A model generated the notes under the pieces. The model was not told where the DNA came from. It made no database searches and saw nothing but the letters and a program-made list of their open reading frames with translations. Shown one piece after another: positions 4,751-60,767 of a stretch of 64,000 nucleotides of DNA. This stretch comes from a virus, in the IMG/VR virus record IMGVR_UViG_3300009702_000016, positions 1-64,000 of that record; one strand, given 5' to 3'. The number at the start of each line of letters is the position of its first letter. Positions within the stretch are counted from its first letter, which is position 1. The position numbers were made by a program, and so were the translations under genes.

Positions 4751-6445
4751 ATGAGCAAGAAAGACCCATCCTGCGTACTCAATAGTCAGCTATGGGTCCC
4801 CACAGACCTTGTCACCCGCAAGGCAGAGAAGGACTTTACGTACACCTTCGACAAGGTGGAATACCAGCCAAAGGTAGACCTCCCTCGAATGTGCATGAAC
4901 TGTGACTTGTGGGGAAAGAAGTGGCGTCCAGGAAAGACGACGTGCGAGTCTAAGGGATACTCGGTGGATGACTTGTGCAAAGACTTCACGCACAAGAAGG
5001 AACCAATCCATATCAAGAGCACTCTTAAGACGTACAAGCACCGCTCCGATGGCTGGTCCATATTCTCACGGGGGGATCTATCGAAAATCAAGAAGCACTT
5101 TGCTTCCCTAGGGATAGAAGACCAGAGATCTGCTCCTAGGCTTCCTTTCAAACTCGTTTGCCACCGGGACCTGTATCCTGAACAGGAAGAAGTCGCACAG
5201 CAGTGGCTGGATCACCGATACGGCATCATAAAAGCGCCTACCGGATGGGGCAAAACTGTTCTGTGGGCGTGGCTTGTGGCGAAGCTGCAGATGAAGACAC
5301 TGCTGTTTGCTCAGGAGGTTCGACATCTGATGGTGGGCCTGGAGGGGCTCTACGAGCACACGAACATCGCAGAGCTTGAGGAAGAGGCAGGAGAGCACCT
5401 GATAGGCGTCCTAGAGAAGGATTGGGAGTGGAGGACGGACAGCGACGGAACGAGGCACAGGCACTTCCTGAAGCGGCCTGGGAAGACCTATCCGATCATG
5501 TTCGCCACGTTCCAATCGCTAGCCTCGAAGAAGGGCAAGAAGCTACGTAAGAAAATCAAGAACGACTACGGGCTTGTTTGGCATGAGGAGGGGCATCACT
5601 CCTCAGCGAAGACGTTCTACAAGGCAGCCCGTGCATTCAATCCCAAGTACCGGGGAGGGCAGACCGCTACTCCTACGCGAAAAGACAAGACTCACGTTGC
5701 CATATACGACCTTATCGGTCCTGTTACTGCAACCGGAACGAAGGAGCAGATGACTCCTGAGGTCGAGTTCCATGCCTCGAACATTCTAGTTCCAGACAGT
5801 GTGTTTCGACGGCAATACGTTATGCCAATTCTGGTCAACTTTCTAGCTTCAAATGCAGTCTATCAAGAGCTGTTGTACGAGACCATCATCTCGGACATTG
5901 AGGAGGATAGAAAGATCCTCGTCATCACAGAGCGAAAGAAACATGCCCTTAATCTGCAGAGCAAGCTTAAGTTGGAGGGCTTCGGCTGCGAGTTGATGAT
6001 GGGAGGGATGAAGCTCAAGGAGCAAAACTGGTACGCAGAGAAGCTGCTATCCGGTGATATCTCCGTGATCATCGGAACAAGCGTGATCAATGAGAACGTG
6101 AACATCCCGCCCTGGGACACGATACACCTGCCCTTCCCCAACTTTGGTAAGGAGAGGGAGGAGCAGCGAGTCGGACGAATCCGCCGATACCTGTCAGGGT
6201 CCAACAAGGAATACCTGCGTGAAAACGGGATCGAATGGGAGAAGCCAACACCTAGGGTTCACGTATACACATGGCATTCCAGCAATGACATGGCAGAGAA
6301 GGAAGTAAACTTACGAAAGAACCTGTACAAAAGCTGGGGGTTTGAGTTCTCCGCAGGGGCCGAAGCGGAGAGCAAAAAGAAGAGAAGGCCAAAAACAATG
6401 AAAGACTGGTTAAAAGACTGTGGAGAGGATGACAACGATGAGTAA
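4751..6445 (+). CDS. Superfamily 2 DNA/RNA helicase
   Basis: 564 residues. The N-terminal 100 or so residues carry a Cys cluster (MCMNC near 47, then C and C in the following 30 residues) that may bind zinc. The motor core follows: KAPTGWGKT near 160-170 (Walker A), FATFQSL near 255, WHEEGHH near 277-283 in the DEAH-box position, QTATPTR near 303 (motif III) and RVGRIRR near 473 (motif VI). The layout resembles UvsW/RadD-type SF2 helicases that remodel branched DNA. The motif II sequence HEEGHH instead of DE.H is notable: the first Asp is replaced by His. The C-terminus is basic then acidic. ATGAGTAA couples it to the next gene. Confidence 0.85.
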   Translation: MSKKDPSCVLNSQLWVPTDLVTRKAEKDFTYTFDKVEYQPKVDLPRMCMNCDLWGKKWRPGKTTCESKGYSVDDLCKDFTHKKEPIHIKSTLKTYKHRSDGWSIFSRGDLSKIKKHFASLGIEDQRSAPRLPFKLVCHRDLYPEQEEVAQQWLDHRYGIIKAPTGWGKTVLWAWLVAKLQMKTLLFAQEVRHLMVGLEGLYEHTNIAELEEEAGEHLIGVLEKDWEWRTDSDGTRHRHFLKRPGKTYPIMFATFQSLASKKGKKLRKKIKNDYGLVWHEEGHHSSAKTFYKAARAFNPKYRGGQTATPTRKDKTHVAIYDLIGPVTATGTKEQMTPEVEFHASNILVPDSVFRRQYVMPILVNFLASNAVYQELLYETIISDIEEDRKILVITERKKHALNLQSKLKLEGFGCELMMGGMKLKEQNWYAEKLLSGDISVIIGTSVINENVNIPPWDTIHLPFPNFGKEREEQRVGRIRRYLSGSNKEYLRENGIEWEKPTPRVHVYTWHSSNDMAEKEVNLRKNLYKSWGFEFSAGAEAESKKKRRPKTMKDWLKDCGEDDNDE

Positions 6446-7079
6446 CAACAATACAACAATGTACTTCAGCATTGATATCGAGACAGATGGACCCATTCCT
6501 TTTGACTACTCGATGCTGTCCTTTGGTGTAGTTGCCTTTGAGGCTGACGGCACCGTTCGAGGAACGTACGAAGCTAACCTAGACCGAATCCCAGGGGCAC
6601 AGCAACACCCCGATACCATGAAGAACTTCTGGGAGAAGAATCCTGAGGCATGGGAGTACTGCACGTCAAACACCCGACCTGCAAAAGAAGTGATGCCTGA
6701 GTTTGATGCATGGGTTCGGGACCTAACTGTAGATAGGCGTAGGTCGGCCATATGCTACCCGTCAGGGTTCGACTTCACCTTCCTGTTCCCTTATCTCATG
6801 CGCTACTCGGGCTCTAGCCCGTTCATGTTCTCATGCATCGATGTGAGATCTTATGTGTCGGGGATGAGAAACTGCGAGTATAGTAAGGCAGGAAAGTCCT
6901 ACTGGCCGAAGCGCTGGAAGAACAAGTCCCTGAAGCACACCCATAAGGCAATCGATGACGCAGTGGAGCAGGGATTGTCTTTTCTGAAGATCAGAACGGA
7001 GAACGTATCCGGTGTGCAAGACATCGACGCCGTTGAAAGCAAATACCTAGAAACGCTGAAGAGCTTCAGGAACGAGTAG
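6438..7079 (+). CDS. DnaQ-like 3'-5' exonuclease (DEDDh)
   Basis: 213 residues from the ATG at 6438, which overlaps the helicase stop in ATGAGTAA and has GGAGAGG nine bases upstream; ATG 6429 lies too close to that site. DEDDh motifs: SIDIETDG with D13 and E15 (ExoI), PSGFDFTFLFPYL near 107-119 (ExoII), and HKAIDDAVEQG near 169-179 with the His and Asp of ExoIII. The family removes nucleotides from 3' ends, either proofreading for a polymerase or trimming RNA and DNA ends (RNase T, ExoX). No polymerase domain is fused. One base separates it from the next gene. Confidence 0.85.
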   Translation: MSNNNTTMYFSIDIETDGPIPFDYSMLSFGVVAFEADGTVRGTYEANLDRIPGAQQHPDTMKNFWEKNPEAWEYCTSNTRPAKEVMPEFDAWVRDLTVDRRRSAICYPSGFDFTFLFPYLMRYSGSSPFMFSCIDVRSYVSGMRNCEYSKAGKSYWPKRWKNKSLKHTHKAIDDAVEQGLSFLKIRTENVSGVQDIDAVESKYLETLKSFRNE

Positions 7080-7080
7080 A

Positions 7081-7647
7081 ATGCGCTCTGGTCGTAGAAC
7101 CCAGGATTACCACTTTATCAAGACGGAGAGGGATGCCCTCTACTATGCAGCAGAGATCCCCTCCGTTGCTTGGGGTCCCCCTCCAAAAGAAGTAAATCCT
7201 CCCTTCAAGGTGATCGTAGCTGACAGCTACACTGTCACTCCCAAGGAGCAGAAGAAGTGGTTCGATTCCCTGTGGGAAGGGGAGATGTTCAGTGTTCCTT
7301 ACCTGATCATCGTGTCCTCTGACGAGGATGACAGTGTGGCGGTGTCCCTAGGATACAACCTGATGAAGAAAGCCCTAGAGAATAATCGTGTACAGATTAC
7401 TGGGTCCGCTGGAATCAAAGAGGAGGAGACGAACGAAGAGACCGTCTTCATGCTCACCAATCTATACAGCGAAGCACCCGAAGAAAGGATTCAGAAAGTG
7501 CGTGACTGGTGTTACAGGCATAAGGACTGTTTCCGTATACTCTGCTCCGCAGGAGACCCCGCAGTGCTCGTAAGACGCCTTCATTTGAGGTTCAACGCAG
7601 TGTTTTCAGTGGAATCAGTACGACACGAGGAGCACAGTTTCGTATGA
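7081..7647 (+). CDS. Possible degenerate AAA+-like protein, candidate helicase loader
   Basis: 188 residues, not firmly recognised. Its end overlaps the DnaB-type helicase start in ATGA, so both are made together, the usual place for a helicase loader or primosome protein. Strand-like segments FKVIVADSYT and VPYLIIVSS, then VFMLTNLYSEAPEERIQKVR and FRILCSAGDPAVLVRRL, recall the core strands and sensor 1 region of small AAA+ loaders. No Walker A motif is present, so any ATPase activity is doubtful. The loader reading is inference from position and strand order only. Confidence 0.5.
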   Translation: MRSGRRTQDYHFIKTERDALYYAAEIPSVAWGPPPKEVNPPFKVIVADSYTVTPKEQKKWFDSLWEGEMFSVPYLIIVSSDEDDSVAVSLGYNLMKKALENNRVQITGSAGIKEEETNEETVFMLTNLYSEAPEERIQKVRDWCYRHKDCFRILCSAGDPAVLVRRLHLRFNAVFSVESVRHEEHSFV

Positions 7648-12771: not shown

Positions 12772-12857
12772 GGAAAGTTGGCCGAGTGGTCGAAGGCACC
12801 TGATTTGAAATCAGGCGTGCCCTAAAGGCACCGGGGGTTCGAATCCCTCACTTTCCG
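12772..12857 (+). tRNA. tRNA-Ser (anticodon UGA, reads UCA)
   Basis: An 86-base cloverleaf. Acceptor GGAAAGT (12772-12778) pairs with ACTTTCC (12850-12856), with discriminator G at 12857, as in tRNA-Ser. The D stem is GCC/GGC (12781-12783, 12795-12797). The anticodon stem CCTGA/TCAGG encloses loop TTTGAAA, with anticodon TGA at 12806-12808. A long class II variable arm GTGCC/GGCAC is present, and the T stem GGGGG/CCCTC encloses TTCGAAT with one G-U pair. The 3' CCA is not encoded (the next bases are CCG), so a CCA-adding enzyme is needed. It is not a stop-codon suppressor. Confidence 0.96.
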
Positions 12858-12869
12858 CCGAGATGCACT

Positions 12870-58219: not shown

Positions 58220-58411
58220 CTACTCCTTTTGTGTCCTAATTTTTGCAGTGGGTGGTGGCCATTCTACATGTGTTTCATCAATGTAGGACCGATCTTCTAG
58301 AGACATCGCTTGCCATAGTAAGTCCATTTCCGTTAGTATCTTGTCCTCAGCAGCTCTGTTGCTCTTAAGCTTTTCTAGAAGCTGGGCGTATCTTTTCGCT
58401 AACTTTGACAC
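58220..58411 (-). CDS. 63-aa helical protein, function unknown
   Basis: Helical (KLAKRYAQLLEKLKSNRAAE; KILTEMDLLWQAMSLEDRSY). It shares its first base with the preceding gene's stop (TAGTG-type junction) and ends two bases before the next start, so it is a real member of the operon. No family was recognised. Confidence 0.62.
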   Translation of the reverse strand: MSKLAKRYAQLLEKLKSNRAAEDKILTEMDLLWQAMSLEDRSYIDETHVEWPPPTAKIRTQKE

Positions 58412-59541
58412 TATACTTCACGTTTTGGTGTACTTACATCCGTTTGTCCTGGAGTAGTTACATGTGGGCCGTCTGGGGTTGATGTTTCTGCTCTATCCCC
58501 AGGTAGTCTGAGGTGGTTCGCGTTGCTCTTTTGTACGAACAGCTCGTTTTCTTTGTCTGTCTGTATGCTCTTAATATAATCAGGTAGAATCTTGTCAGTT
58601 ACCTTCCCAAGAGGAACAATCGAGTATCGATCATACGATTGAACGATTCGAGCTGTTACGTCCCACGACGTTAGGATTCCGCTGGGCTTGTTATCTTGCG
58701 CAGTGATAATTTTCCATCGAGTGCCGTCTAGTGTGTTGTACAGCCAGTCGTCCGTAGTGAGGTTTTTCAGGGTATTGTCCAACCAAAACCTCTGGCTACT
58801 GAAGCTCTCGTAGATTCCAAGTTCCTCTAGCGTGAGGCTTTCTTCTACTCTTGGTATGTTGACACGAAGTGCTGTTTCTGGAATTAGTCTATACGCGATT
58901 CTTATCGTAACCACCTTAGGAAGTGCTGCGTGAGGGGACACACGCTTCATCACTATTTTAAGCTGAACCTTTTGCTGTCCAAGACGAACCCCTAGTGACT
59001 CTTCTGTGAGTACCGAGTAGTCAGTTTCTGATGGGGATTTAATGTAGTAATAGACGTTTGTTCCCTCTGGCGCATAGTCTTTTATGCTCAGCGTGTCTAG
59101 TATTCCTACATTACTTTGAATTGGAACCTCAAAGTCTAGCGTACCATACACTGCGGACTTAATCAGTGACCAGAAGGTAGGTCTAGTCGGTTGGTTATAG
59201 TCTGGCGTAGTGTTTGCGCAGGACACGTTAGGGTAGGTTACATCGAAGACTACCGTTTTCGTTCCTCTCTTGTTGAACCCCCCAACGACTCCTGTGCCAA
59301 AGCATACGGGACAGATTCCTGCGGGCTCTGTCTCTACCTCAAAGCACGAGCATCTTCTTCCTGTCTTGAGTCTTTGGAAGTACTCAAAGTACACAGGGTT
59401 TACATTGGACGCATTTTGGCTTAGACGAGCGATTATGGGAACAAGGTCTTCCCTCGCCTGCCTTTGGGGCAAGTCACCGAGAATGTCGGTATTCGACGTC
59501 ACTCTGTCATCGTCCATAGGACGGTATCCCTGCGCACCCAC
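58411..59541 (-). CDS. Probable connector/tail-type virion protein with zinc ribbon
   Basis: 376 residues from GTG 59541, with GAGGAA five bases upstream. Residues 60-85 carry C64-S-C66 and CPVCFGTG (C77, C80), a DnaJ-like C-x-x-C-x-G-x-G zinc ribbon found in some phage baseplate or head-tail proteins. A beta-rich body follows (GTNVYYYIKSPSETDYSVLT; AYRLIPETALRVNIPRVEES; YNTLDGTRWKIITAQDNKPS). The tail is disordered (TSTPDGPHVTTPGQTD). It is the first gene of this leftward cluster and diverges from the amber-interrupted gene. Exact role unknown. Confidence 0.66.
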   Translation of the reverse strand: MGAQGYRPMDDDRVTSNTDILGDLPQRQAREDLVPIIARLSQNASNVNPVYFEYFQRLKTGRRCSCFEVETEPAGICPVCFGTGVVGGFNKRGTKTVVFDVTYPNVSCANTTPDYNQPTRPTFWSLIKSAVYGTLDFEVPIQSNVGILDTLSIKDYAPEGTNVYYYIKSPSETDYSVLTEESLGVRLGQQKVQLKIVMKRVSPHAALPKVVTIRIAYRLIPETALRVNIPRVEESLTLEELGIYESFSSQRFWLDNTLKNLTTDDWLYNTLDGTRWKIITAQDNKPSGILTSWDVTARIVQSYDRYSIVPLGKVTDKILPDYIKSIQTDKENELFVQKSNANHLRLPGDRAETSTPDGPHVTTPGQTDVSTPKREV

Positions 59542-59582
59542 GGCATTTCCTCGGTCTAGATTAGCCCTGCTTTTTCTGTACG

Positions 59583-59611
59583 TTATCTACAGTTCGTACC
59601 TTCAATATAAT
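59583..59611 (+). promoter_or_regulatory. Possible sigma-70-type promoter
   Basis: A consensus -10 TATAAT (59606-59611) is preceded 17 bases upstream by TTATCT (59583-59588), a weak -35. Transcription would start near 59618, 13 bases before ATG 59631. The divergent position supports it. TTATCTA is also seen upstream of ATG 61490 and of the tRNA, but without a good -10. Confidence 0.45.
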
Positions 59612-59630
59612 GTAGGGAAGTCTATCTACT

Positions 59631-59744
59631 ATGGCCATTTCTCCCCAAAGGGCGGTTCGAGGAACTCCTACGGTGTTCGAGCAGTTATTTGCTGACACGG
59701 ATGGTACTCCTCTTTCTCCCATTGACCCTAGTGCCTATCCTTAG
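59631..59744 (+). CDS. N-terminal segment before an in-frame TAG
   Basis: ATG 59631, preceded by GTAGGGAAG, opens 37 codons (MAISPQRAVRGTPTVFEQLF, then ADTDGTPLSPIDPSAYP) to a TAG at 59742-59744. The same frame continues directly into the next coding segment. The sequence reads as the first strands of an Ig-like phage module (FADTDGTPLSP.DPSAYP), which normally runs on as V-x-I-x-x-P. The downstream segment begins exactly so (VSIVSPSEEV). Confidence 0.65.
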   Translation: MAISPQRAVRGTPTVFEQLFADTDGTPLSPIDPSAYP

Positions 59745-60767
59745 GTGTCTATCGTCTCGCCATCTGAGGAAGTAATACAGTCCGGCGTGGCTGTGTCAGC
59801 TGGTGACGGTCGTTGGAGATTCACCTGGTTTGTTCCTGCTGACGCAGAGATGCTAGGCCCAGACAATCCTTGGAGGATTGACTGGCTAATGGCCACTGCG
59901 GGCGGAAGACAAATTGAGCTTCAGACTAACTTCTTCCTGATTGACAACATTGAGGCCACTCCTGACGAGCGTGCCTATACCAATCTAACTTACAAGGGAA
60001 ACTCAGAGCGTGCTCTGATAAAGTTCAAGAACGCACAGGAGTCTGTTAGCGTCACTTTAATGGACCAATCAGGAGCGGAAACGGACCTATCTTCTACCCT
60101 CCAGACGATACAGAGTGACGGCTTCTATAACTATTTCGTTGATACTCCTGTTTTAGACACATCAGGTTGCTATATCGTTGTGTGGAACACTAGACAGACT
60201 TCTGTTTCCCCTAACTCTACGATGGTCCAGCAGATCCGTGTTCCAGAGATGAACTTTTGGTTTGTTCAGCCAAGCTTGCGCATGCTTTTGGACAAGATTC
60301 AGAAGAAGATAGGACATGTCCAGTCGTATTCGGATGCTGACCTTTACGAGTATATCCTTCGAGGAACTGAGTACATCAATGCTGTGAACCCTATCACAGG
60401 ATGGACGTTCACTAATTGGCCGTCCAGCTACGGCATGGGGAACTTTCTCCTAATGGCCTCTGCCTGGTGGGGATTAAACGCTCAATACCTGTCAGAGGCC
60501 GAGGCTTCGTTCAATTTCAGCGGCCAGACGGTCACGCTTCAGGTAGATAGAACTGCGCATTATGAGGCAGCAATGAACCGCCTGCAAACGTACCTGGATA
60601 AGGAACTTCAGCACACAAAGAGAAACATGCTCCGCAGAGTGAGCGTGGGCGCTATTTCTACTCGTCCCTATGACTTCGGACTTCAGAGCCTTGTAACAAA
60701 GGTTCAGACTGTAAACGGTGGACAGAATCAGGTTCTTCCTCTATTTAGCAGATTAGGGTTGGTTTGA
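59745..60767 (+). CDS. Virion protein, main segment (Ig-like N-domain, helical C-domain)
   Basis: 340 residues from GTG 59745, directly behind the TAG; the whole frame 59631-60767 would be 378 residues including the TAG position. Beta-sandwich continuation: VSIVSPSEEVIQSGVAVSAG, GRWRFTWFVPADAEMLGPDN, WRIDWLMATAGGRQIE. The middle has RALIKFKNAQESVSVTLMDQ. A helical C-terminal half follows (LLDKIQKKIGHVQSYSDADL; YEAAMNRLQTYLDKELQHTK). It seems to be a tail or head-fibre component. GTG may serve as a re-initiation start, or be read through from 59631. Followed after one base by the membrane protein gene. Confidence 0.72.
   Translation: MSIVSPSEEVIQSGVAVSAGDGRWRFTWFVPADAEMLGPDNPWRIDWLMATAGGRQIELQTNFFLIDNIEATPDERAYTNLTYKGNSERALIKFKNAQESVSVTLMDQSGAETDLSSTLQTIQSDGFYNYFVDTPVLDTSGCYIVVWNTRQTSVSPNSTMVQQIRVPEMNFWFVQPSLRMLLDKIQKKIGHVQSYSDADLYEYILRGTEYINAVNPITGWTFTNWPSSYGMGNFLLMASAWWGLNAQYLSEAEASFNFSGQTVTLQVDRTAHYEAAMNRLQTYLDKELQHTKRNMLRRVSVGAISTRPYDFGLQSLVTKVQTVNGGQNQVLPLFSRLGLV

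Follow-up and report, generated by a model that had tools for sequence, protein, structure and literature searches.

Phages that are predicted to read TAG as glutamine (genetic code table 15) occur in the Crassvirales and other groups, and about half of these phages (375 of 715) carry a tRNA with a CTA anticodon (PMC11210395). Their genes gain considerably in length when TAG is translated as Gln. In bacteria, in-frame stop codons under purifying selection have been reported (PMC7918605). Another known system is the programmed basal readthrough that leads to a minor extended protein in phage Q-beta, namely A1.

The locus studied here has an in-frame TAG in a virion gene, as do the recoded phages. 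However, in the virus record that contains it, TAG is a normal stop codon, and the two in-frame TAGs that we found are isolated. We conclude that the TAG appears to be a lesion of a single base, specific to this record.

A predicted head-tail connector gene with an in-frame TAG

The window (64 kb of DNA) is the first part of a metagenome-derived virus record of 164,031 bases, which we call G000. On the plus strand of the window, ATG 59631 is followed by 37 sense codons and then by a TAG at 59742–59744, which is codon 38. Past the TAG, this frame stays open through another 340 codons, the first of which is GTG 59745, and closes at TGA 60765–60767. A preliminary description of this DNA had reported the same frame, and we reproduced it in the sequence. 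If codon 38 is taken as a sense codon, then the gene (59631–60767, plus strand) has 378 codons.

The 378-residue product, with the TAG translated as an amino acid, matches the head-tail connector family phrog_17327 in a profile search (E-value 2.1e-21, residues 232–335). Cultured phages also have head-tail connector or joining proteins that align to residues 7–333 in a tblastn search, with 21–25% identity. By profile and tblastn, the window protein belongs to the same family as proteins of Erwinia phage pEa_SNUABM_7 (YP_010303330.1) and Alcaligenes phage Afa-NA1 (XUE01635.1). The connector genes of these two phages are uninterrupted, in contrast to the window gene. We therefore predict that the interrupted gene encodes the head-tail connector of a jumbo-type phage, in agreement with an earlier suggestion that the product is a virion protein. 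Although the frame of this family member is interrupted, the TAG occurs only in the G000 record. Because we judge it to be a lesion, the gene is still filed in phrog_17327.

By sequence, we found no relative in the PDB. An AlphaFold model has a mean pLDDT of 49.7, and its residues from about 6 to 190 are at best moderately confident. In this region only, the model predicts with moderate confidence an N-terminal beta domain, with strands at residues 6–9, 13–19 and 38–42.

Codon 38 in related phages

Searches of viral contigs yielded six relatives of the connector, at loci L001, L002, L003, L004, L009 and L014. They come from the IMG/VR records UViG_3300029893_000001, 3300027851_001140, 3300000478_000013, 3300049049_000146, 3300030332_001481 and 3300002231_000760, the last of which contains L004. 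The identity of the relatives to the window protein is 64–94%, and L004 is the closest (94%). All six represent the same gene, and the neighbouring genes are similar in the loci examined. A scan of genome contigs found no relatives.

The proteins of L001, L002 and L003 align without gaps over all 378 residues with 75–76% identity, which rules out that the frame consists of two chance ORFs. The alignments of L014 and L009 (64–66% identity) also argue against this idea. As the preliminary description had proposed, the residues on the two sides of the TAG thus form one continuous module.

Unlike in the window gene, codon 38 is a sense codon in each of the six relatives. It encodes Ser in five of them (TCT in L001 and L003, TCG in L002 and L009, TCC in L014) and Ala in L004 (GCT). 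We also scanned viral contigs with a pattern that allowed TAG at this site, and none of the five records found has TAG there. The frame is uninterrupted from an upstream start through the whole protein in every relative except L004. The sense codon is the ancestral state. A change from TCG to TAG requires only one base substitution (C to A), and we infer that TCG is the codon that was replaced. The preliminary description had advised looking for a sense codon in homologues, and had a nonsense mutation and a sequencing error among its options. Both options are retained. The TAG is private to the window gene. Because a sense codon is present in all relatives, a private error or chance mutation is favoured over a new kind of decoding.

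In L004, which is part of record G006, one base is inserted a few codons ahead of the codon-38 site. We initially considered this frameshift as a second, independent lesion near the site. However, G006 is a visibly poor record, with some ten frameshifts over the 45 kb that could be aligned, so we discarded this idea and gave the L004 frameshift no biological weight. The G006 record also illustrates the appearance of error in data of this kind.

The L004 connector gene additionally contains an intein-like insertion at about 5890–7530 of IMGVR_UViG_3300002231_000760, between F296 and S297. The first residue of the insertion is Cys, it ends in His-Asn before the Ser, and there is a frameshift inside it. 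Its match to the Pfam Intein_splicing model (E-value 9e-7) is below the curated cut-off. The insertion is absent from the window connector and from the other relatives.

Programmed readthrough at a basal level would make a minor extended protein, as with Q-beta A1. The frame is indeed open on either side of the TAG. However, none of the relatives conserves the stop codon, and it falls at codon 38 of a connector gene instead of terminating an abundant protein. Conserved programmed readthrough is therefore not upheld, and we regard it as extremely improbable.

Start of the protein

The 37 codons ahead of the TAG (59631–59741, plus strand) are conserved and include two of the predicted beta strands (residues 6–9 and 13–19). 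In an alignment of six sequences, the invariant residues in this stretch are R10, G11, F16, E17, L19, F20, D24, G25, P30, D32, P33, A35, Y36 and P37. The annotated starts of the Erwinia and Alcaligenes phage proteins are one codon ahead of the point that aligns to residue 7, so that the bulk of the region ahead of the stop is present in these proteins as well. Given this conservation and these upstream starts, the upstream part is native to the protein. The natural start is accordingly identified as 59631 and not GTG 59745, in agreement with the preliminary description.

It is the conserved N-terminus that supports this start, and not the sequence motifs upstream of it. The gene is separated by 89 bases (59542–59630) from a divergent, conserved and intact neighbour on the minus strand (58411–59541), which terminates in a TAG where two relatives also end. 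The preliminary description had pointed to a promoter-like element and a ribosome site in the intergenic stretch. Both sequences are literally present (TATAAT at 59606–59611 and GTAGGGAAG at 59612–59620), but we found no sigma-70 hexamer pair around the TATAAT. Moreover, a crude scan for Shine-Dalgarno core matches of at least 4 nucleotides found none at ATG 59631 or at GTG 59745.

Another proposed explanation was stop-start re-initiation, in which a 37-residue peptide is made and translation then restarts at the adjoining GTG 59745 to give a 340-residue connector. The GTG directly follows the TAG, and a crude scan suggests that GTG is used as a start codon elsewhere in the genome. By contrast, the relatives and the annotated homologues in cultured phages start upstream, and no homologue examined starts at the GTG. 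The lack of a detectable ribosome site before the GTG also counts against re-initiation, although ATG 59631 fares no better in the same crude test. Re-initiation would additionally delete the predicted strands at residues 6–9 and 13–19, and the protein would begin one residue into the strand at 38–42. It is therefore not supported, and we consider it very unlikely. The open frame from the GTG (59745–60767, plus strand, 340 amino acids) is a mechanical ORF rather than one with a natural gene start.

TAG as a terminator

Relatives exist for 141 genes of G000, whose stop codon is TAG in 41 cases, TGA in 65 and TAA in 35. For 27 of the genes ending in TAG, the end is at most 5 residues from the ends of the relatives, which use any of the three stop codons. 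We also scanned G000 for coding sequence that continues in frame beyond a stop codon. The signal that a codon model gave in G000 was too weak for this purpose, so we turned to a hexamer model. It found such continuations at 13 places, following 4 TGA, 7 TAA and 2 TAG codons. In 12 of these, a start codon occurs two to six codons past the stop, as in ordinary tandem genes. The exception, TAA 22970, is probably antisense to a large gene there. Coding sequence past TAG is no more common than past TAA or TGA. Given this result and the 27 matching ends, TAG is a working terminator in G000.

These observations lead us to reject genome-wide recoding of TAG. In a phage using table 15, many genes with in-frame TAGs, avoidance of TAG as a terminator and a tRNA with a CTA anticodon would be expected. 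G000 has two in-frame TAGs in conserved genes in 164 kb, and TAG is freely used as a terminator. A CTA-anticodon tRNA is absent from the 164-kb fragment and from the near-complete related genome G004, but is present in two other relatives (G002 and G005).

Other lesions in the record

We surveyed about 100–105 kb of aligned G000 coding sequence for lesions in comparison to relatives. A first survey was swamped by antisense shadow ORFs, and a non-overlapping gene set was then used. Remaining antisense cases with low scores or multiple stops were set aside by eye, which is a matter of judgement.

Three further conserved genes are broken in G000. An SbcC/gp46-like ATPase gene that is intact in relatives has an in-frame TAG at 158412 (locus L020); the corresponding codon in G002 is GAG (Glu), which is one base different. 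A conserved protein of 500 amino acids, also intact in relatives, has an in-frame TAA at 119502 (L018). Finally, a frameshift at 131838–131846 (7838–7846 of L019) in the gene for a topoisomerase II ATPase subunit destroys the conserved DNSIDE ATP-binding motif. This gene is intact in three relatives. When G001, G002 and G005 were surveyed in an equivalent way, no lesion in a real gene was convincing; antisense shadow frames were again excluded by eye, as a matter of judgement.

In this one 164-kb record, four conserved genes are broken, by substitutions as well as by an indel. The best explanation for this is a consensus of poor quality. With several conserved genes broken in a single record, this explanation is favoured over a biological one, and the lesions are probably technical. 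We thus consider it probable that the TAG is a consensus or sequencing error in an otherwise ordinary connector gene. The Ser codon TCG would have been changed to TAG in the assembled consensus only. In the actual phage, codon 38 would probably be a sense codon and the 378-residue connector would be made normally from ATG 59631.

Two observations count against an error. Three of the four G000 lesions are substitutions, which are also expected from real mutation. Additionally, a polarised count of private changes at codon positions 1 and 2 shows no excess in G000 (139, versus 133 in G006). However, three nonsense errors would imply a rate of roughly 7 errors in 10,000 bases, and this would add only about ten changes. 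Since lineage divergence swamps this expected number, the mutational spectrum is uninformative as a test for sequencing error.

Alternatively, the phage population that was sampled could really carry the TAG as a nonsense mutation, in a defective or minority genome and without any special decoding. One base change from TCG would be enough. In comparison to L004, the N-terminal codons have 8 synonymous and 3 nonsynonymous differences in 29 codons, which fits a recent lesion. On the other hand, the connector should be essential, and a single viable genome could hardly carry lesions in three more conserved genes. We therefore view a genuine mutation as unlikely.

tRNAs and amber suppression

As in the TAG-to-Gln recoded phages (PMC11210395), tRNAs with a CTA anticodon occur in relatives of the window. 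They are located at 105653–105726 in G002 (L035) and at 130879–130954 in G005 (L069), and ARAGORN labels them tRNA-Pyl. Both are candidate amber suppressor tRNAs. G002 and G005 are near-complete genomes of about 390 kb whose genetic code otherwise seems to be the standard one, and they have a total of 44 and 30 tRNAs, respectively. The second-nearest match of the G002 CTA tRNA is a Gln tRNA of G005, and the two have the same D arm. We found no CTA-anticodon tRNA in G004, so two of the three near-complete relatives have one.

G000 has a single tRNA, a tRNA-Ser(TGA) at 12772–12859 of the window, and the tRNA array of its relatives is absent from the record. Most of the G000 genome is probably missing, as the record has 164 kb in comparison to 388–424 kb in the near-complete relatives. 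The absence of a CTA tRNA from G000 therefore says little.

A CTA tRNA in the unsequenced part of the genome might read a fraction of in-frame TAGs, possibly as Gln. The isolated TAGs in the connector and SbcC-like genes would then be tolerated or regulatory. The CTA tRNAs of G002 and G005 are consistent with such suppression, as is the fact that two of the three in-frame stops in G000 are TAG. However, the conserved genes examined in G002 and G005 contain no in-frame TAG, and suppression leaves the TAA and the frameshift in G000 unexplained; for these reasons, we do not favour it. The use of TAG to end 27 conserved genes where their relatives end, the lack of excess coding sequence beyond TAG, and the absence of a CTA tRNA from G004 also argue against suppression. 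We consider it quite unlikely, and it is not needed to account for the TAG.

Conclusions

The TAG in the connector gene is most likely not evidence of a new way of reading genes. Regardless, it calls for caution, since conserved genes in an individual metagenomic virus record can contain in-frame stop codons. Comparison to relatives and a survey of lesions in the same record resolve most such cases.

It is doubtful, though conceivable, that this jumbo lineage uses the standard code with its own suppressor tRNA, possibly of a Gln type, and a few TAGs in conserved genes such as those for the connector and the SbcC-like ATPase. As part of this same doubtful reading, the lineage would represent an intermediate step on the way from the standard code to a full recoding of TAG. 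If the TAG is real and a suppressor tRNA is present, the locus would offer a direct view of phages that are beginning to reassign a stop codon.
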